Positions 6,163 through 17,434 of a DNA stretch of 21,802 nt are shown in pieces. The stretch's first letter is position 1. Each line of letters begins with the position of its first letter. A program made the translations under genes and the position numbers. The notes beneath the pieces are model-generated. The model saw only the letters and a program-made list of their open reading frames with translations. It was not told where the DNA came from and made no database searches. The stretch comes from a virus, in IMG/VR virus record IMGVR_UViG_3300034102_001412, positions 1 through 21,802 of that record; one strand, 5' to 3'.

Positions 6163-6289
6163 CTTGCGCTGACATCGCAGACACGGATTCCCTACGGGAA
6201 TTGGTTCAGTGTCCCTTACTGTCCTCGCTTGCGCTGACATCGCAGATACAGACCACCTTTGGTGGTTGGCTTAGTATCCATTACTGTCC
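6163..6289 (+). repeat. Two tandem 65-bp structured repeats with covarying stems
   Basis: Copies begin at 6163 and 6228. Each starts with the same 18 bases, containing hairpin TGCG-CTGACAT-CGCA. Each then has a second stem-loop that keeps its fold with changed sequence: ATTCCC-TAC-GGGAAT (6187-6201) in copy one and ACCACC-TTT-GGTGGT (6252-6266) in copy two. Outer pairs GACAC/GTGTC and GATAC/GTATC also covary. Both copies end in TTACTGTCC. The pattern suggests a structured RNA or DNA element upstream of the 6401 gene. Confidence 0.6.
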
Positions 6290-6308
6290 TTGGGGCAAGG
6301 CTAGTGCC

Positions 6309-6365
6309 AAGAACCTACGGTTCTTGCAAGTGCAATTCTTGCTTGTCCACCACTACTTCGTAGTG
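6309..6365 (+). other. Series of leader hairpins before the 6401 gene
   Basis: Three stem-loops follow the tandem repeat: arms CAAGAACC/GGTTCTTG with loop TAC, GCAAG/CTTGC with a 7-base loop, and CACTAC/GTAGTG with loop TTC (6351-6365). They lie in the presumed leader and precede the start-site hairpin by about 15 bases. Confidence 0.45.
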
Positions 6366-6379
6366 AAACTATCCCTATT

Positions 6380-6403
6380 ATAATTTACTGGAGGTAAATT
6401 ATG
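6380..6403 (+). promoter_or_regulatory. Start-site hairpin presenting Shine-Dalgarno in loop (1)
   Basis: Arms ATAATTTAC (6380-6388) and GTAAATTAT (6394-6402) enclose loop TGGAG (6389-6393). The GGAG(G) core sits in the loop and closing pair, and the first two bases of the ATG are in the stem. This decides the start of the 6401 gene. Confidence 0.7.
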
Positions 6404-6673
6404 TCCCTTACAATTACCCAACAACAAAAACTTGTAGAGCGAGCCACGGAGTGGCTCGGTCAGGACATCAAAAATGTCTCCGACATTTTTGTTCCACAGT
6501 CGGCTATTGACTGGGGTTTTTGCTTCCACCCTGAGTATTGTGACGAAGTCACCGAAGTTGAGGCTTATAACGCCGAAGGCGTTACTGTTTTGTTCCTCAA
6601 TGCTTCTTACGAAGTAATTGCTACGGAATTCGTAGAATACACCGTTGAAAACAACGCTTTTCTTTCCTACTAA
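6401..6673 (+). CDS. Hypothetical protein, 90 aa
   Basis: An unrecognised acidic protein with no membrane segment or known motif. The middle (EVEAYNAEGVTVLFLNASYEVIATEFVEYTV) looks like a small beta-sheet, and the N-terminus is helical. The start is fixed by the hairpin-displayed GGAGG. The coding sequence carries at least seven perfect hairpins, for example 8 bp with loop GGA at 6440-6458, 10 bp with loop TCC at 6469-6491 and 7 bp with loop GAA at 6568-6584. The stop codon lies in a perfect 22-bp palindrome (6663-6684). It is probably the first gene of the early module. Confidence 0.75.
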   Translation: MSLTITQQQKLVERATEWLGQDIKNVSDIFVPQSAIDWGFCFHPEYCDEVTEVEAYNAEGVTVLFLNASYEVIATEFVEYTVENNAFLSY

Positions 6674-6684
6674 TTAGTAGGAAA
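6663..6684 (+). other. Perfect palindrome over the stop codon
   Basis: Arms TTTCCTACTAA and TTAGTAGGAAA meet with no spacer, and the TAA stop (6671-6673) is in the left arm. It ends 19 bases before the next start-site hairpin. No T-run follows, so it is not a classic terminator. Confidence 0.6.
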
Positions 6685-6703
6685 TACATCATCCACCCAC
6701 AAG

Positions 6704-6724
6704 ATAATTACTGGAGGTAATTAT
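6704..6724 (+). promoter_or_regulatory. Start-site hairpin presenting Shine-Dalgarno in loop (2)
   Basis: Arms ATAATTAC (6704-6711) and GTAATTAT (6717-6724) enclose loop TGGAG. The stem is one base pair different from copy 1 yet still perfectly paired, and the ATG begins in its right arm. This decides the start of the 6723 gene. Confidence 0.7.
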
Positions 6725-7064
6725 GTCCCTAGAGACAAAAGCGAAACTTACGGTTTCTAAAGAAAAACGAAAAGTTGAATTTTCGTGGACAAACGAGGCT
6801 ATGACTCGTAGAGTCAAACTGTCGGTTTATCACTCACCTGAACGGAAGCATTTTTGGGCTTGTGTAAGTCGTTCCGACTTACGAATGTCGGGCAACTTTT
6901 CAGTTGAGGAATACGAACCGTTCCGTGACATTATGCAACTTGGCAAGGAATCTGTAGACAGATTCTCATTCGGCAAGTTGCAGAACTACGCTGGACAAGT
7001 CCTTATGGACTTCTTGGATTCCGACAACGAATGGAAAACCGAGGCAGAAGCCCTAGTTTCCTAG
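6723..7064 (+). CDS. Hypothetical protein, 113 aa
   Basis: I do not recognise this protein. It is strongly charged at the N-terminus (KAKLTVSKEKRKVEF) with alternating strands, followed by a helical half (EEYEPFRDIMQLGKESVDRFSFGKLQNYAGQVLMDFL). No cysteine pairs, membrane segments or catalytic motifs are present. The coding DNA is full of hairpins: 8 bp at 6864-6882 (loop TTC), 8 bp at 6948-6965 nested inside a second 8-bp stem (6935-6942 with 6974-6981), and 6 bp at 6997-7012. The stop codon lies in hairpin CTAGCC-TTT-GGCTAG. Confidence 0.7.
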   Translation: MSLETKAKLTVSKEKRKVEFSWTNEAMTRRVKLSVYHSPERKHFWACVSRSDLRMSGNFSVEEYEPFRDIMQLGKESVDRFSFGKLQNYAGQVLMDFLDSDNEWKTEAEALVS

Positions 7065-7089
7065 CCTTTGGCTAGTTTCATCTCAAGAT

Positions 7090-7150
7090 GTTGTGTCGCA
7101 ACACCACTAACGAAGTGGTGGTGTTGCTACACAACGACCATAATCGCCCC
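7090..7150 (+). promoter_or_regulatory. Large intergenic hairpin A plus GACCATA motif
   Basis: GTTGTGT and ACACAAC pair outside, then GCAACACCAC and GTGGTGTTGC pair inside after one mismatch, with loop TAACGAAGTG (7108-7117). GACCATAATCGCCCC follows directly. The stem-loop ends 20 bases before the start-site hairpin of the ATPase gene. The loop is identical to that of hairpin B at 10497-10542. Confidence 0.6.
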
Positions 7151-7155
7151 GATTC

Positions 7156-7172
7156 TTTACCTAGGAGGTAAA
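7156..7172 (+). promoter_or_regulatory. Start-site hairpin presenting Shine-Dalgarno in loop (3)
   Basis: Arms TTTACC and GGTAAA enclose loop TAGGA, with AGGAGG spanning loop and right arm. The ATG follows 4 bases later at 7177, so here the start codon is outside the stem. Confidence 0.65.
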
Positions 7173-7176
7173 CAAA

Positions 7177-8487
7177 ATGGCACTCAAAAAGCCCACAATT
7201 ATTTCTGTTGACACAGAAACCAACCGTGTGACCTACCGAGAATTCGGTAGTAGCACTAACAAAACAGACCGTTGGTCTTTTTTGTCCAAGAACGCCAAAA
7301 CGGCTACCTTGTCATTTATGGGACATAAATTTGTTGGTAAGCCACCAATGCATTTTACAAATGACGAAATTGACATGGCTTACATTGTAGCAAAACGGAG
7401 TTTTGTTCCAAGTCCTACTGGCTTTGAGCCAGTACCACCTAACACAGAATCGGAGATTCCAGTGCCACCAACACCAAAACCACAACCCAAGCCCACCAGT
7501 TCCACTGGTGGTTTGGATGACATCCTCCGTGGTGTCGTTGCCGAAGTCCTTGGGGACTTCGTTCCTGAGGTTGACCCTGCCAAGGTTGCTAGCATTGTGT
7601 CAACTTTGTTGACACCAACTCTCACCACAATGACCGAGGCAACATCCCAAGTTGCAGAACTTCGTTCTGCTATTGACCGACTTCGCCCCAAGGTGACTGA
7701 GATACATCTCAGTGACAACGAAATCATCAAGTTGGATGGAATCCAACATCACCAATTCCCTAAGGTACTTAGTGGAATTGCCAACGGTGAACACTTGTAC
7801 CTTGTAGGTCAAGCAGGAACTGGCAAGTCCACAATTGCCGAGAATGCCAGCAAGTCCCTTGGACTTGACTTTGCTTCTAAGTCTTGCTCTAGCCAGTCAA
7901 CTGAGGCTAGCCTTTTAGGCTATATGTCGGCTACTGGTAATTATGTCGGAACACAGTTCCGAGAGGCATACGAAAAAGGCTTCGTCTTTTTGTTGGATGA
8001 GGTTGACAACGGCAACCCGAACATTCTCACTGTTCTAAACAGTGCTTTGTCCAACACCTTTATGGCTTTCCCCGACGGTATGGTCAAGCGTCATAAGAAC
8101 TTCGTTCTTATTGCAACAGCCAATACCTTTGGTAACGGTGCAACTTCCGAGTATGTTGGTCGTAATGCTTTAGATAAAGCATTTATGGACAGATTCACCA
8201 CCATAACCGTTGGTTATGACAGTGATGTTGAGCAGGCTATGCTTGATTCCGTCAAGGGACTTGACGCTAATCTTGCTAGCAAGTGGCTAACTATCGTTCG
8301 TCGTTGTCGTGCCAATGTTGAGACCTATGGTCTCAAAGTTATTGTGTCGCCTCGTGCCACCCTAAAGGGTGCTAAGTTGCTTCGTGACAAGGATGTTTGG
8401 AACATCAATGATGTTCTTGACGCTACAGTGCTTGCTGGTTGCAAGGATGACCAACGAGCCAAGATTATGGAAGGCATCACCCTTTAG
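7177..8487 (+). CDS. CobS/MoxR-type AAA+ ATPase
   Basis: A 436-residue ATPase of the MoxR/CobS (AAA_5-like) group, which usually remodels a protein partner carrying a VWA domain. Residues 1-75 form a small N-terminal domain, 78-107 a Pro-rich linker, and 110-175 a helical region. The AAA+ core follows: Walker A GQAGTGKST (211-219), Walker B VFLLDEVD (270-277), sensor-1 region IATANTF (312-318), a likely arginine finger in FMDRF (336-340) and a sensor-2-like SPRA (391-394). Glu275 for hydrolysis is present. The following gene encodes a VWA-like protein, matching CobS-CobT, MoxR-VWA and RavA-ViaA pairings. The phage target is unknown. Confidence 0.85.
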   Translation: MALKKPTIISVDTETNRVTYREFGSSTNKTDRWSFLSKNAKTATLSFMGHKFVGKPPMHFTNDEIDMAYIVAKRSFVPSPTGFEPVPPNTESEIPVPPTPKPQPKPTSSTGGLDDILRGVVAEVLGDFVPEVDPAKVASIVSTLLTPTLTTMTEATSQVAELRSAIDRLRPKVTEIHLSDNEIIKLDGIQHHQFPKVLSGIANGEHLYLVGQAGTGKSTIAENASKSLGLDFASKSCSSQSTEASLLGYMSATGNYVGTQFREAYEKGFVFLLDEVDNGNPNILTVLNSALSNTFMAFPDGMVKRHKNFVLIATANTFGNGATSEYVGRNALDKAFMDRFTTITVGYDSDVEQAMLDSVKGLDANLASKWLTIVRRCRANVETYGLKVIVSPRATLKGAKLLRDKDVWNINDVLDATVLAGCKDDQRAKIMEGITL

Positions 8488-8507
8488 GGTGGTGCTGACC
8501 ATAGCCC
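8474..8507 (+). promoter_or_regulatory. Stop-codon hairpin plus GACCATA motif
   Basis: Arms GCATCACCC (8474-8482) and GGGTGGTGC (8487-8495) pair with one G-U pair around loop TTTA. The TAG stop (8485-8487) spans loop and right arm. GACCATAGCCC follows at 8497, matching the motif after hairpins A and B. Confidence 0.5.
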
Positions 8508-8522
8508 ATTCATTCCACTATC

Positions 8523-8543
8523 TAATTTACTGGAGGTAAATTA
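8523..8543 (+). promoter_or_regulatory. Start-site hairpin presenting Shine-Dalgarno in loop (4)
   Basis: Arms TAATTTAC (8523-8530) and GTAAATTA (8536-8543) enclose loop TGGAG, with the A of ATG closing the stem. The core is identical to copy 1 although the flanks differ. Confidence 0.7.
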
Positions 8544-9409
8544 TGGAAAACAAAAAACCCTACAAGGACATAACGCTTGCCGAGGGCAAGGGTGACCAAG
8601 TCACTATGTCGCTCTTTGAGTCGCTTGGTGATTATGCTCGCCTTGCTGGTAGCAACCCCAACCCAAGCAGAACTGGCAGTGACCAACCGTTTAGCCCTCG
8701 GTTTAATTACAGCAATTCACTTGCTGAATCAGTAGAATTATGCCAACAGGGTTGGCAAGCCGTGCGACCTGATGTTGACAAGTTGCTTGGCGTTCTAGAG
8801 GAACGCTTGACCGACGCTTTTGGTAGTTACTTTGTAACGGAATACCAAACAAGTGGTGCTGTTGTGGATATGGGGCGTTTCGTCACTGGTGAACCTGAAT
8901 GTATGTTGGAATTCGTACAAGAGCCACAAGCGAGAATGGGTCGTGTTGTCAAAATTGTTGTCAACGCTAGTTGTTCTTGGAACATTGACCAACAACTAAT
9001 TTTGAATCGTGGCGTAGCCATTCTAGCCCTCGTTGACACTATCCATAAAATGGGTGTCGGCATTGAGTTGTGGTGGGAGGAATCTGCTAGTGCGGCGATT
9101 CATTTTACCAATTTGGTAAAGTTGCACGACAGTTCAGAACCTATGGACATTGACGCTATTATGTTTGCTTTAGCAAATCCTGATATGCTTCGTCGTTTGC
9201 AGTTCTCGGTGCAGGAACAGCATCCGTTGGCGAACAAAATGGGTGTTGGTGCTGGCTATGGTTCACCTGCCGACCTTTGGTCGGTACGCCACAAGTTTAC
9301 CGATTATGATGTTGTAGTTGAGAAACTACAAAATGCCAATGACGAGTTGGCAAATAACCCATTGGAATGGGTTATGTCCACGATTACAGGCTTAGGGTTG
9401 GTGGACTGA
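8543..9409 (+). CDS. VWA-like partner of the AAA+ ATPase
   Basis: A 288-residue protein probably working with the upstream ATPase. The segment from 133 to 180 reads as a Rossmann-type strand-loop-helix-strand (RVVKIVVNASCSWNIDQQ, then RGVAILALVDTIHKMGVGIELWWEES). In VWA domains the first strand ends in the metal site DxSxS. Here the same place holds N141-A-S143-C-S145, so the metal-binding aspartate is replaced by asparagine. The N-terminal 130 residues are helical and the C-terminus resembles phage-specific extensions. A diverged CobT/VWA-like role is inferred from fold pattern and gene order. The stop overlaps the next ATG (TGATG). Confidence 0.55.
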   Translation: MENKKPYKDITLAEGKGDQVTMSLFESLGDYARLAGSNPNPSRTGSDQPFSPRFNYSNSLAESVELCQQGWQAVRPDVDKLLGVLEERLTDAFGSYFVTEYQTSGAVVDMGRFVTGEPECMLEFVQEPQARMGRVVKIVVNASCSWNIDQQLILNRGVAILALVDTIHKMGVGIELWWEESASAAIHFTNLVKLHDSSEPMDIDAIMFALANPDMLRRLQFSVQEQHPLANKMGVGAGYGSPADLWSVRHKFTDYDVVVEKLQNANDELANNPLEWVMSTITGLGLVD

Positions 9410-9678
9410 TGAGGTTTCCAAACACGGAGTGTTGTTATGAATGTGGTGAACCTATGTTTGACTTGCAAGAAGTCAATGGCGATTGGTTTTGTCTCTTATG
9501 TATAAGAGACAATAAAGGAAAGGAAAAAGAAATGGACTTATGTCCAGTATGTGATGATGAAATGACTGATAGTCATTCTAACTACCAACCTACTTGGTCG
9601 GATTATTATGACAACATAGTTTGTTGGTTGTGTTATACACAACAAAACGGAAAGGAAAATGAAAATGAAAACGAGTGA
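9409..9678 (+). CDS. Double zinc-knuckle protein, 89 aa
   Basis: The preferred start is the ATG at 9409, overlapping the previous TGA. The frame is open further upstream, but that part is a shadow of the VWA-like gene. The product has four CxxC pairs: YECGE (about 9-13), FCLLC (29-33), LCPVC (44-48) and VCWLC (71-75), forming two treble-clef or zinc-ribbon units. A C-terminal tail rich in Glu, Asn and Lys follows. It is likely a nucleic-acid or protein-binding adaptor, specific function unknown. The 3' end overlaps the next gene by 20 bases. Confidence 0.65.
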   Translation: MRFPNTECCYECGEPMFDLQEVNGDWFCLLCIRDNKGKEKEMDLCPVCDDEMTDSHSNYQPTWSDYYDNIVCWLCYTQQNGKENENENE

Positions 9679-10024
9679 TGATGTCGTTCTTGTAGAACGA
9701 CACTTTATGCAAGGTGCTTACGAGATACAGGAGGCTTCTAACGAAGGTCGGCTGTATCACCATTGGAATGGCAAAGCCATAATGCGAGGACAAAATGATG
9801 AATACATAATCGTTGATTTCAACGATTGTTCTCACCATTCGTTGTGTCGGTTTGTCATTGCACAACCTGACGATTCCACACGGGATTACTTCAAGCGTCA
9901 ATGGGCTAGCCCAAGTTTCTATACCGAATTACATTCGGAACAAGATGTCATTGCTTTCTATAGAAAGCAATATATGCAAGCCATTTTGGCTTCTGAACCA
10001 CCAAAAACAAAGGAGATAGCATAA
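9659..10024 (+). CDS. Hypothetical protein, 121 aa
   Basis: I do not recognise this protein. It is mixed alpha/beta with several His residues (VERHF, YHHWNG, DCSHHSLC) but no clear metal-site spacing. GGAAAGG precedes two closely spaced in-frame ATGs (9659 and 9665), so the exact start is uncertain by two codons. It overlaps the zinc-knuckle gene by 20 bases and its TAA overlaps the next ATG. Short hairpins recur in the coding DNA, such as GTTG-ATTT-CAAC and GCTTTC-TA-GAAAGC. Confidence 0.65.
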   Translation: MKMKTSDDVVLVERHFMQGAYEIQEASNEGRLYHHWNGKAIMRGQNDEYIIVDFNDCSHHSLCRFVIAQPDDSTRDYFKRQWASPSFYTELHSEQDVIAFYRKQYMQAILASEPPKTKEIA

Positions 10025-10242
10025 TGCTAGTGGAAACCCCAACCTATATAGGTTACAAAAAAGACGGTGAATTATGGGCTTTTAGCCCTAGCCCAATGCT
10101 CGGTTGTGATGTTGTTTACAACATCAGTAATTGGGCTTGGGAGGATGTGATGTCATTTATGAATGACATTCCTACTGCCGAGAAACTGGAATGGTTGCAA
10201 CACAACGCAATTTTGTACGACTACACTAGTTTGGAGAACTAG
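10024..10242 (+). CDS. Hypothetical protein, 72 aa
   Basis: An unrecognised small acidic protein rich in Trp and Tyr, with WAFSPSPMLGCDVVYNISNW in the middle and a helical C-terminus (EKLEWLQHNAILYDY). It has no membrane segment or known motif. An upstream AAAGGAG gives a good ribosome site and the ATG overlaps the previous stop (TAATG). Its TAG stop lies in an ACTAGT/ACTAGT hairpin and overlaps the GTG of the next gene. Confidence 0.65.
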   Translation: MLVETPTYIGYKKDGELWAFSPSPMLGCDVVYNISNWAWEDVMSFMNDIPTAEKLEWLQHNAILYDYTSLEN

Positions 10243-10469
10243 TGGAACGGCGCAATGCACAACTTGAAGTCAAGTTGTCCATAACGGCATTCGTATTCGT
10301 AAGTTTCTTTGTAGTGTTTACACTACAAGATTGGACTTCATCCGTCTTTTGGGCTAATGCGATTCCTGCAATTGCGTTTAGCCTTGTGTTCCATTTGTGT
10401 ATAATATACACTTGGATATCCACTATAAAGTGGATGATGAAATCATTGAAAAATCTAAATAGATTTTAG
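10242..10469 (+). CDS. Small two-helix membrane protein (GTG start)
   Basis: A 75-residue protein starting at a GTG that overlaps the previous TAG. Two hydrophobic segments, about LSITAFVFVSFFVVFTL (12-28) and FWANAIPAIAFSLVFHLCII (36-55), flank a short polar loop with TLQDWTSS, and the C-terminus is basic (KWMMKSLKNLNRF). This shape fits a holin or a superinfection-exclusion or membrane-anchoring protein. It lies in the early module, which argues mildly against a holin. The stop codon sits in hairpin TTTTAGCG/CGCTAAAA (10464-10488). Confidence 0.6.
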   Translation: MERRNAQLEVKLSITAFVFVSFFVVFTLQDWTSSVFWANAIPAIAFSLVFHLCIIYTWISTIKWMMKSLKNLNRF

Positions 10470-10496
10470 CGAACCCCCAACGCTAAAAAGCAAGAT

Positions 10497-10553
10497 ACTG
10501 TGTCGTACCATTCCTAACGAAGTGGGAATGGTACGATACAGTGACCAGAACCC
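10497..10553 (+). promoter_or_regulatory. Large intergenic hairpin B plus GACCAGA motif
   Basis: ACTGT/ACAGT, one G-U pair and the 12-bp stem TCGTACCATTCC/GGAATGGTACGA enclose loop TAACGAAGTG (10515-10524), identical to hairpin A while most stem bases differ. GACCAGAACCC follows directly. The stem-loop ends 21 bases before the start-site hairpin of the DUF3846-like gene. Confidence 0.65.
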
Positions 10554-10563
10554 TAAACCCTAA

Positions 10564-10584
10564 ATAATAACTGGAGGTTATTAT
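10564..10584 (+). promoter_or_regulatory. Start-site hairpin presenting Shine-Dalgarno in loop (5)
   Basis: Arms ATAATAAC (10564-10571) and GTTATTAT (10577-10584) enclose loop TGGAG. Compared with copies 1, 2 and 4 the stem differs at several pairs, each compensated on the other arm. The ATG begins in the stem. Confidence 0.7.
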
Positions 10585-11173
10585 GTCAATTAAAGTTGGA
10601 ATGTTCCTACCTACAGGTAGCAATGTTGAACCCGAACCCTTTTTCTTTCAGAACTATGAGGATTTGCAAAACGCCGTAGGTGGTGCTTTTGATGTTGTCC
10701 GTACCGACCTTGGTCGTGATGATGTTGCCTTGCTCGGTTATGTCAACGACATTGGCTTGCTCACTGACTTGGAATACAACTACCTTGCAACTGCGTTGTT
10801 CAAGCAGAATCTTGTCGGCAATGTCGTCGTCACTTGGGGTCTGTCACCTAACGGTGAATACGACGGTGACGATTATGACATTCCTGAGGCAATGGTTGAA
10901 TTTATTCAAGGTGAACTTGTTGCTTCAACAGCAGACGCTTATAACCTTTCGGTTATGTCTAGCCTTGCTTGCCAAATGGCTATTGAGTGTGGACTCAGCA
11001 CCGATGATGACATTATGGACATTGTTCGTGGTATGAGCAGTGGTGACCGTGACGAAGCCAATTCGTGGGCTAAGAAGTTGAATGAACTGCTGGAAGCAGT
11101 TATTGCGTTTGAGGCTAAGAACCCTGAAGCCTTTGGCGACGCTGTGCAGCGTCTGAACGAAAAGGGAGAGTGA
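10583..11173 (+). CDS. DUF3846-like protein
   Basis: A 196-residue protein. The N-terminal about 90 residues fit the pattern I associate with DUF3846, common in actinophages: NYEDLQNAVGGAFDVV (24-39), then VALLGYVNDIGLLTDLEYN (48-66) and GNVVVTWG (78-85). The molecular role of that family is not established. The C-terminal half is acidic and helical (DDIMDIVRGMSSGDRDEANSW) and may be a separate domain. The start is set by the hairpin-displayed Shine-Dalgarno. The stop TGA overlaps the next ATG. The family call is from memory of the pattern. Confidence 0.6.
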   Translation: MSIKVGMFLPTGSNVEPEPFFFQNYEDLQNAVGGAFDVVRTDLGRDDVALLGYVNDIGLLTDLEYNYLATALFKQNLVGNVVVTWGLSPNGEYDGDDYDIPEAMVEFIQGELVASTADAYNLSVMSSLACQMAIECGLSTDDDIMDIVRGMSSGDRDEANSWAKKLNELLEAVIAFEAKNPEAFGDAVQRLNEKGE

Positions 11174-11385
11174 TGAAACAAGCACCTTCGGTGCAACCCA
11201 AGAAAGCCGTGAAGCGTGGGGGGAGTAATCCCCCCACATACCACAAGGCTGGCACTTGGCGTTGTCCACGCTGTGCAAACACCATTGAGGTGTTTGTCAA
11301 GATGACCTTTCCCCCTGCGTGTTCTAATCACAAGGGACAAGGTTCTACAATTATGGAAATGGTAAAGAAAGAGAAAACAAAATGA
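11173..11385 (+). CDS. Zinc-ribbon protein, 70 aa
   Basis: Begins at the ATG overlapping the previous stop; a GTG one codon upstream is also possible. The product is basic at both ends with WRCPRCANTIEVFVKMTFPPACSNH in the middle: CxxC, then a beta strand, then a single Cys followed by His, giving a CCCH-type zinc ribbon. Proteins with this layout recur in actinophages. It may bind nucleic acid, but function is unknown. It overlaps the next gene by four bases (ATGA). Confidence 0.6.
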   Translation: MKQAPSVQPKKAVKRGGSNPPTYHKAGTWRCPRCANTIEVFVKMTFPPACSNHKGQGSTIMEMVKKEKTK

Positions 11386-11627
11386 GAAAATACCTATTGG
11401 TAACAGTTGAACATCCTGATGATGTTACACCACAGCACTTCATAGATATGTGCATAAAGCAACACCTAGTGCAGTTGCTTGCTGACTTGCCTGATGGTTG
11501 GGCAGTGTTCTGCGACGACCTGATTACGACAGAAGGCGACGAAGGTGGGGTAGTTTTATCCGACGAAGTAGAACCCGAAACAACAGATAATGTTATTCAA
11601 TTGAATAACTACAAGAAAGGAAAATAA
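11382..11627 (+). CDS. Hypothetical protein, 81 aa
   Basis: I do not recognise this protein. The N-terminus reads as a strand then helix (KYLLVTVEHPDDVTPQHFIDMCIKQHL), followed by a short strand (WAVFCDDLI) and an acidic, probably disordered tail ending NNYKKGK. Length and charge suit a small regulatory or inhibitor protein, which is only a guess. It is coupled to the upstream gene through an ATGA overlap. Confidence 0.6.
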   Translation: MRKYLLVTVEHPDDVTPQHFIDMCIKQHLVQLLADLPDGWAVFCDDLITTEGDEGGVVLSDEVEPETTDNVIQLNNYKKGK

Positions 11628-11628
11628 A

Positions 11629-11922
11629 ATGACATACATAAATGTACCATTTATTATGGAGGATATGCCTGAAGCAGTAGCCGTAGAATTGTTTTATGCA
11701 ATAAAACGGAAGTTGAATTGGGGTGTTATCGCTTTCACCAAAGCAGACATTGTGGATGTGCTTGAGGATAACGGTTATGATGTTACGGATGAGAACATTG
11801 AACTAGTTCAAACTAGTGGTGTTTGGAAAATGCTAGAACATTGTTGTGCTATTGAAGGAATGGATACCTTGGGGTATCTTGTCCGTGAGGTTATGACAAG
11901 CAAAGAAGCAAACGAGGAATAG
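11629..11922 (+). CDS. Hypothetical protein, 97 aa
   Basis: An unrecognised acidic, mostly helical protein. The segment FTKADIVDVLEDNGYDVTDENIELVQTSG looks like a winged-helix or EF-like helical pair, followed by WKMLEHCCAIEGMDTLGYLVREVM. No catalytic motif is seen. AAGAAAGGA gives a ribosome site at good distance, and the gene follows the previous stop by one base. Confidence 0.6.
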   Translation: MTYINVPFIMEDMPEAVAVELFYAIKRKLNWGVIAFTKADIVDVLEDNGYDVTDENIELVQTSGVWKMLEHCCAIEGMDTLGYLVREVMTSKEANEE

Positions 11923-11930
11923 GAGCAGTT

Positions 11931-12080
11931 ATGGCAACAGGATTTCGCCGTAGGCGTAAGAGAGTTCGTTTAGGTAAACCTAAAAAGGATTACTATACAA
12001 GTTCTCATCCACGCCCTGTAAAAATCACATATATGGAAGGCTTTGAGCCACCAGTAAAACAAGAAGCAACAACAGAATAG
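11931..12080 (+). CDS. Short basic protein, 49 aa
   Basis: A short gene fitting exactly between its neighbours. The ATG at 11931 is preceded by AGGAG at 8-12 bases upstream and the TAG is at 12078-12080. The product starts MATGFRRRRKRVRLGKPKKD and ends in a neutral to acidic tail (YMEGFEPPVKQEATTE). The Arg/Lys-rich N-terminus suggests nucleic-acid binding. No family is recognised. Confidence 0.55.
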   Translation: MATGFRRRRKRVRLGKPKKDYYTSSHPRPVKITYMEGFEPPVKQEATTE

Positions 12081-12088
12081 GAATAATT

Positions 12089-12862
12089 ATGGAAACAGAA
12101 CTAGGATGTGGCGTAGCCACACACGATAAGGCGTGTTTGTGTGATGTAATAATCACACAACCCTTGCCACCGTTGGAACAGTGCGTCAGGAATGGCGTAG
12201 ATGATTTGTTTATGGGGAAAGAACTGGTAGCCCTCAGGGGCTACTCTGCCCCTTGGAACAATCAGACAACCCTTGCCTATTTTGAGGATATGGTCAAGTT
12301 TTATGACGCTTATCACGACGGTCAAAAGGCTGGTTATACGGCTAAACATTTAGATGATGTTCCTTGTCTTGTGTATGGCGAATCTGATACGGCGTATGAG
12401 AAGTGGGGGAAGGTTCGTGAATGTGTTCAGTATTGTATGGATATGTTTGATACAACCCTTGTGGAAATTCTACTACATATCGGTGTCACTGCTGAGGAAT
12501 TTATGGATGCTGCCACTACTGCTAAAGCAGGTAAGGGCTGGAATTATGATGATGTGAACCATTTGGATGTGTTGTTTCAAAAGGAGAATTTGAACTTCAA
12601 TGATTTGGCTCGCCAGTCAGGTTTGACTTTGGAGGTTGTGCGTGGCATACGAAGGTATTGGGATGAACGCCGTAAACGGCTTGTAGGCTCGGACAATCCT
12701 GCCCGTGATTACTTCCACGATTTATGCCGTAACACGACCCTTGGTGGTGCTGTTATTGCTAGAATGGTAAAAGAAAGATACCCTGAAGTGAATTATCATT
12801 CATCCAGTGTATCTAAATATAGAAATAGAATGGTCAATAAATATAATGCAAAGACAGAATAG
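12089..12862 (+). CDS. HTH-containing protein, 257 aa
   Basis: A probable DNA-binding protein of unknown family. The C-terminal half contains a helix-turn-helix, LNFNDLARQSGLTLEVVRGI (about 169-188), followed by a basic helix (RRYWDERRKRL), and then a second helical region (GGAVIARMVKERYPEVNYHSSSVSKYRNRM) that also reads like an HTH. The N-terminus has clustered Cys/His (CGVATHDKACLC), possibly a metal site. It lies upstream of the nuclease-primase genes, so it could regulate them or act at an origin; this is inference. AGGAA precedes the ATG. Confidence 0.6.
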   Translation: METELGCGVATHDKACLCDVIITQPLPPLEQCVRNGVDDLFMGKELVALRGYSAPWNNQTTLAYFEDMVKFYDAYHDGQKAGYTAKHLDDVPCLVYGESDTAYEKWGKVRECVQYCMDMFDTTLVEILLHIGVTAEEFMDAATTAKAGKGWNYDDVNHLDVLFQKENLNFNDLARQSGLTLEVVRGIRRYWDERRKRLVGSDNPARDYFHDLCRNTTLGGAVIARMVKERYPEVNYHSSSVSKYRNRMVNKYNAKTE

Positions 12863-12931
12863 TAACTATTGCTATTTGTCCGTGTATTATTGTTATTGTA
12901 TTAGGACAACCCTTACAAGAAAGAATGCAAT

Positions 12932-13780
12932 ATGAGATTTGATTACACACGAGGTATTGTGTATGTTAGACAGTCGTGGCTGAACGATTTGATTATCTGC
13001 CCTGAAAGGGCTAGATTCAAATTGGCGAAGCCAGATATGTCTGGTGCTAGTGACGCAACCATTATGGGTACAGCACTGCATTATGGTATTGAGCAGGTTC
13101 TCGGTGGGGCTAACCCCACCGAAATGGCTGATATTGCTTTGCAACATTGGACTGAACTAAAAGAACAACCGTATAAACAGACAAACCTTGACCCTGAAAA
13201 GGGTGAACAGCATATCATCAGTATGGCTAAGGCTTTCACTGATGACATTATGCCTGAAGTCCAGTTCGGTGGGGATGTGGAATATAAATTCTCGTTCCCA
13301 CTTGGGATGACTGTTGGCGATTGGGGTGTTTGGTGCGAAGGCACTATGGATTATGTTCAACCTAACGGTGTGATTTGGGATTGGAAAACAGCATCTCGTT
13401 CGTATTATGCGAAAGAGAAACAGTCACAAAGTGTTCAGGCAACTGTTTATGCTGCTGCGCTTGTTCAACAGTTGAAAACAGGTTACCCTGTTGATTTCCG
13501 TTATGGCGTTATGGTTCGGCAAGACAAACCTAAATCACAGATTGTGTATTTGGAACGCACAGCAGAACATCAGCGTTGGCTGATGCACACCGTGAAGCCT
13601 GCCATTCTTATGGCGTTGCGTATCGGCGTTATGGAAGGTCCGTGGATTATGAACGACACAAGCGCGTTATGCTCGGACAAATGGTGTCCATACTGGTCGC
13701 TATGCAAAGGCAACTTCCTGTCCGAGCAAGCATTGCGTTTGCCTTTACAGGCACCGTCTATAGAAATTTTTGAGGCGTAG
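12932..13780 (+). CDS. RecB/Cas4-family PD-(D/E)XK nuclease with Fe-S cysteines
   Basis: A 282-residue nuclease of the RecB/Cas4/AddB type (PDDEXK_1), acting on DNA ends during phage recombination or replication. Visible motifs are His50 in GTALHYG, Asp140 in CEGTMD, the D150-W-K152 catalytic pair in IWDWKTA, and Q169 in VQATVYAAA (the QxxxY motif). Cys23 (IICPERA) plus C247, C252 and C258 (CSDKWCPYWSLC) match the four-cysteine Fe-S cluster that clamps these nucleases. Context with a DnaB-type ATPase, primase and RusA supports a replication-recombination role. The ribosome site (AAGAAAG) is weak. Confidence 0.85.
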   Translation: MRFDYTRGIVYVRQSWLNDLIICPERARFKLAKPDMSGASDATIMGTALHYGIEQVLGGANPTEMADIALQHWTELKEQPYKQTNLDPEKGEQHIISMAKAFTDDIMPEVQFGGDVEYKFSFPLGMTVGDWGVWCEGTMDYVQPNGVIWDWKTASRSYYAKEKQSQSVQATVYAAALVQQLKTGYPVDFRYGVMVRQDKPKSQIVYLERTAEHQRWLMHTVKPAILMALRIGVMEGPWIMNDTSALCSDKWCPYWSLCKGNFLSEQALRLPLQAPSIEIFEA

Positions 13781-13824
13781 TGACATTCTTGTCTCTACAT
13801 CTGATATCGTTATCAACGACAACC

Positions 13825-13839
13825 ACACCAAGGAGGTGT
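13825..13839 (+). promoter_or_regulatory. Start-site hairpin presenting Shine-Dalgarno in loop (6)
   Basis: Arms ACACC and GGTGT enclose loop AAGGA, with AAGGAGG spanning loop and right arm. The ATG follows four bases later. The stem is shorter and GC-richer than in copies 1, 2, 4 and 5. Hairpin CGTT-ATC-AACG lies just upstream. Confidence 0.55.
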
Positions 13840-13843
13840 ACCA

Positions 13844-14290
13844 ATGGTCAGTAAAGACCAATCCATCATTATGCAAGTATGCGCTAAAATTGCGTCAGAG
13901 TTGACTCCGAAAGGAGATGATGTCAACGCTAATATCGTTGCCTTTACAGAGGCATACGAAATGGTATGTGACATTATTCTGACAAGCCAAGGCATTGCCT
14001 CCAGCAATGCTGAAGCACCACACGCAGAATCACCACAGCAAGAAGAACAAGCGTTCACACAGGCTTTTCCTTCTGCTACACCAGCACCAACCCCGACAGC
14101 GACTGGTTTCCAAGTTCGCATCAAGGGCAAGCAACACGGACCAATTCCTGCTTGGTTGAACGACGCTTGTGCAGTCAAAGGTGTGAGTGAAGTGTGGGAC
14201 AACCGAGACACTCTCGGTGCAAACCCAAAGCGACCTTGGTTCAAATCAACCACAGGTAACGATGCCTTTTGGGCGCCTCGTGGCGCATAA
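13844..14290 (+). CDS. Replication-associated protein, 148 aa, function unknown
   Basis: Two parts joined by a Pro/Ala/Glu-rich linker (about 57-86). The N-terminal about 48 residues form a helical unit (IIMQVCAKIASELTPKG, then IVAFTEAYEMVCDIIL). The C-terminal domain reads FQVRIKGKQHGPIPAWLNDACAVKGVSEVWDNRD, then NPKRPWFKSTTGNDAFWAPRG, rich in aromatic and basic residues. Placement between a nuclease and a DnaB-type ATPase, with aromatic/basic content, would suit a single-stranded-DNA-binding or annealing accessory protein, but no OB-fold signature is clear. The call is deliberately weak. Confidence 0.65.
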   Translation: MVSKDQSIIMQVCAKIASELTPKGDDVNANIVAFTEAYEMVCDIILTSQGIASSNAEAPHAESPQQEEQAFTQAFPSATPAPTPTATGFQVRIKGKQHGPIPAWLNDACAVKGVSEVWDNRDTLGANPKRPWFKSTTGNDAFWAPRGA

Positions 14291-14309
14291 CTAAAAACAA
14301 AGGAACAAT

Positions 14310-16630: not shown

Positions 16631-17121
16631 CCGACAAACCCCCACCGAAAGGAAAGTTTTCAGATTATGATATTCCAGCGAAAAAGTTTAACTTTCACGA
16701 CGACCTTAAGTTTGGTCACAAGGGTGAAGCGTTGGTTACCGAGTTCCTCTCTGCAATGGAATCTGGTGCTTTTGAAGTTAAAACCGACAGATACCGTAAT
16801 GGCAAGATGGTCTTGGAGATGGAACATAATCCGAGGCTACGCAAAGACGCTGACGGCAAGGCTATTTGGGAAAAGTCAGGACTAAATGTGACGAAAGCAA
16901 TGTGGTGGGTTTATGTTTTAACATTAAACGGCAGCGAAGGTGCTTTCCACATTATAAGTGTTCCCCGATTGAAACGATATCTGAAACTAAACCCTGACAA
17001 GTACAACCGTAAAACAATGCAAAACTTTGCTGTACGCAGTGGAAACCCCTCACGAGGATTCCTGCTGCTACCCGAAGATGTGTTAGATGTTATGACAAAC
17101 GCAAATTATGATGAAGTATGA
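16627..17121 (+). CDS. PD-(D/E)XK endonuclease-like protein
   Basis: The start is the ATG at 16627, ten bases after GGAGG and overlapping the rusA stop. An upstream TTG is also in frame. The 164-residue product has GHKGEALVTEF (30-40) and FEVKTDRYRNGKMVLEME (49-66). E34 with E50-x-K52 gives a PD-(D/E)XK-type active site, followed by a strand with Glu. The WWVYVLTL strand is the usual hydrophobic beta strand. Similar small proteins in cyanophages and marine phages are annotated as endonucleases or resolvases. Two neighbouring junction-type nucleases would be partly redundant. Confidence 0.6.
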   Translation: MTDKPPPKGKFSDYDIPAKKFNFHDDLKFGHKGEALVTEFLSAMESGAFEVKTDRYRNGKMVLEMEHNPRLRKDADGKAIWEKSGLNVTKAMWWVYVLTLNGSEGAFHIISVPRLKRYLKLNPDKYNRKTMQNFAVRSGNPSRGFLLLPEDVLDVMTNANYDEV

Positions 17122-17434
17122 CCCACGCAAAAAACTAAACGAAAACTCAAGCGAATGGGAAATCTTAATGATGCCATTCGCATATGAAAACGAAGTTTCG
17201 GAGACAAACTGGAAAACCGTTGATATAGTTACCGAGTGTTTGTCCACGCTAAACGAAGAGGACCAGCGTGTGTTGTACGAAATCTTTTATGACCGTACAA
17301 CATACGAAGAACTGGCAAAGAATCTAAATATAAAAGCAAAGTCGCACGCTTGGCGTAAGACGAAAATAGCAATGGAAAGGCTAAAACAGAAAATTATGGA
17401 ACATCCCGATATGCAACACCTAAGGGATAAGTAA
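17108..17434 (+). CDS. Sigma-region-4-like HTH protein
   Basis: A 108-residue protein whose centre, VDIVTECLSTLNEEDQRVLYEIFYDRTTYEELAKNLNIK (about 38-76), matches the sigma70 region 4 pattern (L-x-x-L-x-x-x-x-R-x-V-L, then TYEELAxxL), followed by HAWRKTKIAMERLKQKI as the recognition and trailing helices. No region 2 is present. It may act as a small transcription regulator or partial sigma, perhaps for late genes. Two adjacent ATGs are possible starts. It overlaps the preceding gene by 14 bases and its TAA overlaps the next ATG. Confidence 0.6.
   Translation: MMKYDPRKKLNENSSEWEILMMPFAYENEVSETNWKTVDIVTECLSTLNEEDQRVLYEIFYDRTTYEELAKNLNIKAKSHAWRKTKIAMERLKQKIMEHPDMQHLRDK

Follow-up and report, generated by a model that had tools for sequence, protein, structure and literature searches.

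Seven genes on the + strand of a virus sequence (IMG/VR virus record IMGVR_UViG_3300034102_001412, positions 1 to 21,802; this whole stretch of 21,802 bases is the window) carry the core of their Shine-Dalgarno (SD) sequence in the loop of a perfect hairpin that adjoins the start codon. The open frames lie on the − strand at both ends of the window and on the + strand in an early operon from about 6.4 to 18.2 kilobases (kb); the early region 6300–14300 has no near match among 50,697 phage records. By comparison with related genomes the hairpins are shown to be present, to be tied to particular orthologous genes, to keep their pairing through changes in both arms, to stand at early-strand starts and to have stems that are on average weaker than the other hairpins of the same transcripts. 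Our preferred reading, to which we give a probability of roughly 0.55, is that each would act as an initiation module that folds by itself within an early mRNA rich in structure, showing the SD in a loop above a stem weak enough for the 30S subunit to open, a function proposed here from comparative evidence. The hairpins themselves, described earlier in a sequence-only reading of the window, are confirmed, and the observation is stronger than that reading had it.

The six hairpins of the sequence-only reading (genes 6401, 6723, 7177, 8543, 10583 and 13844) all lie where it had placed them; a seventh, which it overlooked, takes in the GTG start of gene 10242. All are on the + strand. The first, ATAATTTAC(TGGAG)GTAAATTAT at 6380–6402, has 9 base pairs (bp), and the start codon of gene 6401 (6401–6403) begins within its 3′ arm. 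It is followed by ATAATTAC(TGGAG)GTAATTAT at 6704–6724 (gene 6723, 8 bp), TTTACC(TAGGA)GGTAAA at 7156–7172 (gene 7177, 6 bp, or alternatively 7 bp with an AGG triloop), TAATTTAC(TGGAG)GTAAATTA at 8523–8543 (gene 8543, 8 bp), CACTAGTT(TGGAG)AACTAGTG at 10224–10244 (gene 10242), ATAATAAC(TGGAG)GTTATTAT at 10564–10584 (gene 10583, 8 bp) and ACACC(AAGGA)GGTGT at 13825–13839 (gene 13844, 5 bp, with other arms of 3–5 bp in orthologs). The 3′ arm at 10224–10244 contains both the TAG stop of gene 10024 and the GTG at which gene 10242 starts; no ortholog of gene 10242 was found in L003–L038. The products are an AAA ATPase (7177), a DUF7192 protein (8543) and a DUF3846 protein (10583); genes 6401, 6723, 10242 and 13844 encode proteins without assigned function. 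Two details of the earlier description need narrowing. It had put the start codon inside the stem in four copies; by Watson-Crick pairing just the first one or two letters of the ATG are enclosed (6401, 6723, 8543 and 10583), and at 6401 an outer pair added by RNAfold encloses the whole AUG. The letters of its five-nucleotide TGGAG loop hold, but RNAfold pairs U with G inside UGGAG and leaves GGA as the apical loop; in other copies C-G or U-A occupies this position. Among 47 distinct copies with the five-nucleotide register, the closing position is TG in 28, TA in 7, CG in 6 and unpaired in 6.

Such hairpins exceed chance by a wide margin. In the window, 12 starts of the + strand are GGAG-led, and at 6 of them the SD is flanked by the arms of a stem of 6 bp or more, where flank shuffles predict 0.20; none of the 3 GGAG-led starts of the − strand has such a stem. 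Across fourteen family stretches (the window, L006, L008, L011, L013, L016, L017, L019, L021, L025, L028, L034, L036 and L047) the counts are 49/148 on the + strand, with 1.55 expected, and 0/36 on the − strand; six stretches outside the family (L038, L048, L049, L050, part of LeBron and part of TM4) give 0/84. Flank-shuffled leaders with the same SD thus seldom produce such hairpins, as the sequence-only reading requires. Hairpins of every kind abound in these genomes, and GGAG away from starts therefore served as a control from the same sequences. Of 203 start-associated GGAG sites in the early regions of the window and 41 loci, 74 fall in the loop of a stem with 6 bp or more; of 351 other GGAG sites there, 28 do (Fisher P 2.8e-16). 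By a further count, 48 of 64 distinct GGAG-loop hairpins closely precede an ATG, compared with 170 of 1858 hairpins with other loops. Since stems of at least 6 bp stand at + (early) strand starts and at none of the 36 GGAG-led − strand starts, the early-gene translational regulon that had been suggested appears plausible.

The hairpins belong to particular genes. Thirty-five related loci were found with the AAA protein, and the leaders of the window and of these loci were tested by flank shuffles (P<=0.05). In this test and in the held-out one below, duplicates among the leaders were collapsed, those lying too close to the end of a contig were passed over, and one rule favouring ATG and GGAG chose the start codon for hairpin and control genes alike; the main test excludes L038. 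Fifty-five of the 75 distinct leaders of the six hairpin genes reach this level (6401, 3/3; 6723, 2/2; 7177, 20/21; 8543, 16/19; 10583, 8/18; 13844, 6/12), compared with 5 of the 89 leaders of six control genes (10024, 1/10; 11173, 2/19; 12089, 0/15; 12932, 0/17; 14310, 0/15; 15380, 2/13). A held-out set of 44 newly fetched loci, which have no sampled 120-mer in common with the earlier ones, agrees in part: among close relatives (L082–L121) 22 of 42 leaders reach the same level (8543, 11/15; 7177, 7/16; 10583, 4/11) and three control genes give 0/12, 0/11 and 0/9, or 0/32 in total; among distant loci (L123–L143) 1 of 18 DUF7192 leaders and 0 of 19 AAA leaders do so. This set contains no leaders for genes 13844 and 14310. 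Carriers of distant AAA and DUF7192 genes, namely L048–L050, part of LeBron and part of MW202803, likewise have no stem of 6 bp at GGAG-led starts. MW202803 (L038), a spring-water phage, has genes for the ATPase, a DUF7192-like protein, a PD-(D/E)XK nuclease and DnaB in the same order; its scanned stretch has no SD-loop stem of 6 bp among 6 GGAG-led starts. Exact searches with three arm versions matched 24, 13 and 0 stretches. Of these 37 stretches, 25 lie on contigs already known through the AAA protein, and 6 of the other 12 have a start hairpin: L164 and L170 resemble this lineage by eye, and L156/L166 and L174/L177 are apparently other phages.

The sequence-only reading had supposed that structure is conserved over sequence, and covariation is indeed present across relatives. 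Leaders of the AAA gene alone include TTTACC(TAGGA)GGTAAA, TAATTAC(TGGAG)GTAATTA, TATTTAC(GGAG)GTAAATA, TGAAAC(GGA)GTTTCA, CATAATG(GGAGGATAA)CATTATG and TTACAAC(TGGAG)GTTGTAA. In an alignment of 42 distinct copies, 90.8% of the cells of the 7-bp stem are paired (53.6% when shuffled), and the covariation score is 0.832, compared with 0.177 for shuffled and 0.08–0.17 for slid alignments (maximum 0.165). The clearest single case is a compensatory double change in the AAA leader of two loci with 84% nucleotide identity, TATTTAC(GGAG)GTAAATA in L012 and TAATTAC(GGAG)GTAATTA in L013, where a single change per arm leaves the pair intact. Other hairpins in L012 and L013 are near background (0.4 and 1.3 per kb), and as neither locus has a general excess of hairpins, this change makes selection the likeliest cause of the covariation.

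The surroundings of the hairpins have a recognizable layout. The 20 nucleotides upstream (59 distinct hairpins) contain 12.3% G, compared with 22.4% in control leaders and 24% overall, and this spacer is predicted to be open, with a mean unpaired probability of 0.53–0.63 from 25 to 11 nucleotides before the loop and less openness further upstream. Most stems are predicted to be weak. SD stems of 6–8 bp average −4.66 kcal/mol, compared with −6.58 kcal/mol for in-gene hairpins (37 vs 270, P 5e-8), and their GC fraction is 0.30 compared with 0.47; the spacer and the stem-energy/promoter analyses leave out L037 and hairpins with 8-nucleotide loops (in the spacer analysis, only those with 7-bp stems). 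E. coli tolerates structures weaker than about −6 kcal/mol thanks to SD pairing, according to PMC3155529. Hairpin cover was profiled around 96 control starts and around 95 distinct starts belonging to five hairpin genes, whether or not an SD hairpin is present. In the hairpin genes it is 0.54–0.57 at −60 to −41, falls to 0.17 at −30 to −21, rises to 0.50 at −20 to −1, drops to 0.03–0.05 at 0 to +19 and returns to 0.48 at +30 to +39; upstream of control starts it is 0.04–0.09. In the window, upstream hairpins on the + strand lie at 6351–6365 (6401 module) and 6663–6684 (6723 module), and large ones at 7091–7134 (7177 module) and 10497–10542 (10583 module). These two large intergenic hairpins have unlike stems and the same loop-side letters TAACGAAGTGG, and GACCA follows each within about a base. 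Inside the AAA gene, the first hairpin lies near codon 11 (7202–7219, + strand); 12 of 13 genomes compared show one at this place, with arms that differ. We also note a motif, CCCTACTA, shortly before starts in L011 (2865, 3177, 4541 and 6480) and L019 (6609, 6977, 8339 and 10141), four copies each; the motif, which reads CCCTATTA at window position 6373, could be a promoter or a spacer element.

A typical module would thus run from a hairpin about 40–75 nucleotides upstream, through an open G-poor spacer of about 15 nucleotides, to a mostly weak hairpin whose apical loop displays the GGA of the SD, the remaining SD letters and the start codon lying within the stem or beside it; some 20 nucleotides devoid of hairpins would follow, and then an in-gene hairpin, above all in the AAA gene. 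In the mechanism that we propose, local hairpins form during transcription and so would keep the start site from pairing elsewhere in the folded message. The loop may offer a landing point to the anti-SD of 16S rRNA, and a 30S subunit held on the open spacer in standby would open the stem. Each copy might then be an SD-dependent, locally insulated start, tunable by stem strength or temperature. Ribosome standby as described for tisB and for synthetic modules, where the ribosome lands on an open stretch upstream of a structured start with an upstream hairpin and then unfolds it (PMC7708055 and PMC3936740), offers a parallel: here too a predicted open, G-poor stretch and an upstream hairpin precede a structured ribosome-binding site. 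In contrast to those cases, the spacer here is short and adjoins the hairpin, the SD core is exposed in a loop instead of being buried, a similar module recurs at several genes with covarying arms, and standby is proposed from prediction.

Several results weigh against this reading or restrict it. The leaders are kin and not independent trials, in the main test and the held-out test alike; the division of the held-out loci into close and distant was drawn after the result was seen; and even among the close ones 9 of 16 AAA leaders and 7 of 11 DUF3846 leaders lie above P 0.05. Loss is possible, as the DUF7192 leaders of L012 (P 0.165) and L013/L014 (P 0.44) have no hairpin, and control genes of the same operon manage without one. 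The 42 aligned copies were chosen for pairing, so that the alignment describes the covariation and the leader and held-out tests are the fairer ones; two of its five measures do not rise above shuffles (both-side changes, 7 vs 6.3; pair types, 15 vs 15.4). When whole leaders of the seven window genes were folded with RNAfold, the check proposed in the sequence-only reading, three came out strong (z −3.97, −4.99 and −6.01) and three weak (z −2.07, −1.82 and −1.46), and that of 6401 was no better than shuffles (z −0.87, 41/200 shuffles). The 5-bp copy of gene 13844 is marginal when taken alone (P 0.043), and this gene has no phasing at the stem length used. The arm and loop values of the spacer analysis arise partly by construction. 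Among 6-bp stems, those at the SD are no weaker than those inside genes (P 0.15), and energies of −7 to −10 kcal/mol occur in some SD hairpins (−10.0 in the strongest). As for the cover profile, control starts rise to 0.24 at +40, the +30 peak comes mostly from the AAA gene (0.89; DUF7192, 0.37; DUF3846, 0.09), and the start zone free of hairpins is only somewhat emptier than in control genes (0.08–0.12). Finally, G-U does not exceed A-C at outer stem positions; the G-U against A-C count within SD hairpins gives no discrimination.

The start hairpins stand in an early transcript that is itself dense in perfect hairpins, with 70 distinct centres at 6300–11300 on the + strand (stem at least 6, loop 3–6). 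With stems of at least 7 and loops of 3–8, the window has 81 perfect hairpins compared with 8.0 in shuffles; successive kb bins from 6 to 11 kb hold 12, 14, 9, 10, 8 and 6, and late parts 1.09 per kb. Densities of at least 5 per kb (stem at least 7) occur in 24 of 42 early regions, the window reaching 11.3, and late regions of the window and 12 loci have 0.5–1.8. Within early genes the excess is about tenfold and is produced by synonymous codon choice: the AAA gene has 22 hairpins (stem at least 6), compared with 1.84 in synonymous-codon shuffles (maximum 5), and its orthologs in L006, L011, L017 and L034 have 16–21, with 1.4–2.3 expected; that of L013 has 1 vs 1.15. Among other window genes the excess is clear in 6723 (5 vs 0.32) and slight in 6401 (3 vs 0.91). 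Hairpin positions coincide in ten orthologs more often than they do under rotation (188 vs 101, standard deviation 9), a result to which shared ancestry contributes, and differing arms occur at like codons, as near codon 11. Stems with one mismatch on the early strand have G-U 63 times and A-C 33 times (P 0.011), in the late region 21 and 18 times; the G-U excess, absent from the late region, fits RNA rather than DNA. In L012, L013, L087 and L093 the array is near background (0.4–1.3 per kb), yet the AAA and DUF3846 genes of L012 and L013/L014, unlike the DUF7192 gene, still have SD hairpins, a pattern that argues for SD hairpins and in-gene array as separable layers. We suggest, tentatively and with less confidence than for the module itself, that the early mRNAs may be a near-continuous string of small hairpins produced by synonymous choice, in which the SD-display hairpins, at a near-fixed distance from the start codon, would be the ribosome entry points; the string could shield the message against nucleases or RNA-targeting immunity and leave the starts readable.

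The hairpins fit no named family among those compared. The sequence-only reading had likened them to the start-associated sequences (SAS) of cluster K mycobacteriophages. The resemblance holds in the arm-SD-arm layout, in the early genes and in the position adjoining the start, and the SAS sequence is fixed, as had been said; but the hairpins are not SAS. In PMC3203893 the SAS is a fixed 13-mer, GGGATAGGAGCCC, with GGG/CCC ends around a 7-nucleotide interior, and its role is given as not known there and in PMC11373665 and PMC12699233. Both elements occur in a subset of non-structural genes, where short arms flank an SD core directly ahead of the start codon, and at + (early) strand starts the hairpins do lie a few nucleotides upstream of such genes. 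The SAS has 3-bp arms, whereas here arms are mostly of 5–9 bp, varying and covarying, with loops of 3–9 nucleotides across the family. In the window no 13-mer agrees with the SAS to within 2 mismatches, 5 differ from it by 3 where 2.33 would be expected by chance, and arms of 5–9 bp with other letters and 5-nucleotide loops stand in place of the 3-bp GGG/CCC ends. Half of the TM4 genome has 0 of 24 GGAG-led starts with an SD-loop stem of at least 6 bp. T4 RegB target sites are alike in having GGAG in the SDs of early genes; RNA structure protects against RegB, and its strong sites share GG*AGRAYARAA (PMC3014915). REGB_T4 (PF10715) was found in 0 of 20 family records and exceeded the cut-off in 0 of 14 control genomes, hence with no positive control. 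Rfam at the gathering score gives no match in the window, and in 10 relatives only four tRNAs. Membership among SAS, CsrA or RegB targets fails, on fixed sequence and arm length for the first and on the protein in the 20 records searched for the others. A DNA operator or repressor site is unlikely, given that arms differ within a single genome and that the position of the SD relative to the start is constant. The CTGATGA-like stretch upstream of some 10583 orthologs, which recalls a hammerhead ribozyme, has by eye no GAAA core and no Rfam match in L029, L034 and L047. No description of covarying SD-in-loop hairpins at phage starts was found in the literature searched (including PMC2864571), a body from which most subscription papers lay outside reach, so that absence from print is not shown. 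We file the SD-display hairpins as a new variant of structured ribosome-binding sites and as a member of no named family.

Other explanations of the start hairpins deserve consideration, and the least improbable, though still unlikely, is that a phage or host RNA-binding protein reads the GGA loop and thereby turns a set of early genes on or off, with CsrA-like logic and a protein other than the known ones. The first U of TGGAG is not needed for anti-SD pairing, and the loop letters are more conserved than the arms (TGGAG in 28/47 of the five-nucleotide-register copies), which would suit recognition; a U.G, C-G or U-A closing pair can, however, account for the loop U. In L005 (1950), L007 (3961), L008 (6088) and L009 (6098) a TGGAG loop on a stem of 12–13 bp, with no start codon attached, stands a short way upstream of an SD hairpin and might be a binding or decoy site. 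Gene 11173 encodes a small protein with weak zinc-ribbon similarity, which 25 of the 37 sequences searched possess, among them the window. The CsrA target shape (PMC7366521) is a short hairpin at the SD with GGA in its apical loop, and copies here have it, some displaying AGG or another part of the SD. Unlike in CsrA/RsmE targets, loop sizes and letters vary, orthologous sites having 3 to 9 nucleotides (GGA, AGG, GGAG, TGGAG, AAGGA and GGAGGATAA). The control by CsrA/RsmE at which the sequence-only reading had hinted finds no backing: a search of 20 family phage records, fragments among them, found no CsrA (PF02599), and the same search exceeds the cut-off in 3 of 14 control genomes. We regard as rather less probable a read-through control of the T4 gene e type, in which only long transcripts can form the complete hairpin, which damps their translation, and a promoter at the 5′ arm gives mRNAs without that arm. 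T4 e, soc, 49 and I-TevI do place phage start sites inside local RNA structure; these structures are inhibitory and sequester the SD and/or AUG in a helix, and for gene e, whose late transcripts lack the 5′ part of the structure, the control is documented (PMC3014915). Here the SD core is in the loop instead. Promoter-like scores of at least 9 occur in 7 of 63 leaders (11%, compared with 4% in shuffles, a weak enrichment), the −10 ending 3–5 nucleotides before the loop in 5 of the 7, and TATAAT overlaps the 5′ arm at 6401; yet 56 of the 63 leaders have no such match, arms such as CAAGC, ACACC and TGAAAC contain no −10, no general promoter was found at the arm, and a CCCTACTAT motif about 19–20 nucleotides before the hairpin in L012 and L013 counts further against it.

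The remaining two explanations start from the hairpin-packed transcript. Selection might favour complete folding of the early mRNA, for instance as a defence against RNases that attack single strands or against RNA-targeting immunity, and the start hairpins would then be just the form of folding compatible with translation. The density of the early regions relative to the late ones, the synonymous choice in the AAA gene and the early-strand G-U excess all suit this idea, which we nevertheless hold to be improbable: L012, L013, L087 and L093 lack the array, with SD hairpins kept in L012 and L013/L014, start-associated GGAG is looped far more often than other GGAG, and SD stems of 7–8 bp are weaker than array stems. 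Least likely, with hardly a chance in our estimation, is that the hairpins have no function and that template switching (quasi-palindrome correction) copies changes between arms, creating covariation without selection. This mutational process yields perfect short-loop palindromes, of which the early region is full. It would not place hairpins on the SD of particular genes or produce the excess at start-associated GGAG, and the compensatory change between L012 and L013 occurred in loci that both lack general palindromes.

A few features of the neighbourhood are recorded here. Directly before the early operon, window positions 6166–6310 contain repeat units TTACTGTCCT and GCGCTGACATCGCAGA, two copies of each, and late in the operon 17108–17434 encodes a small protein with a sigma-70 region 4 match (Pfam E 1e-06). 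Of 7 relatives scanned, 5 have a single tRNA gene ahead of the early operon (tRNA-Asn at L006:5129, L008:5242, L013:5542 and L021:1460; tRNA-Lys at L016:5438), and the window has none. A search for the host revealed no close bacterial relative (14 loci, AAA core 33–43% identity).

Structure at a start codon is usually taken as a hindrance or a switch; here selection seems to keep a hairpin with the SD in its loop at particular genes as its letters vary. The family would thereby supply a natural data set on ribosome entry into structured mRNA and a possible reading for the unexplained SAS of cluster K, and it brings to light a phage early transcript filled with hairpins that synonymous codons create.

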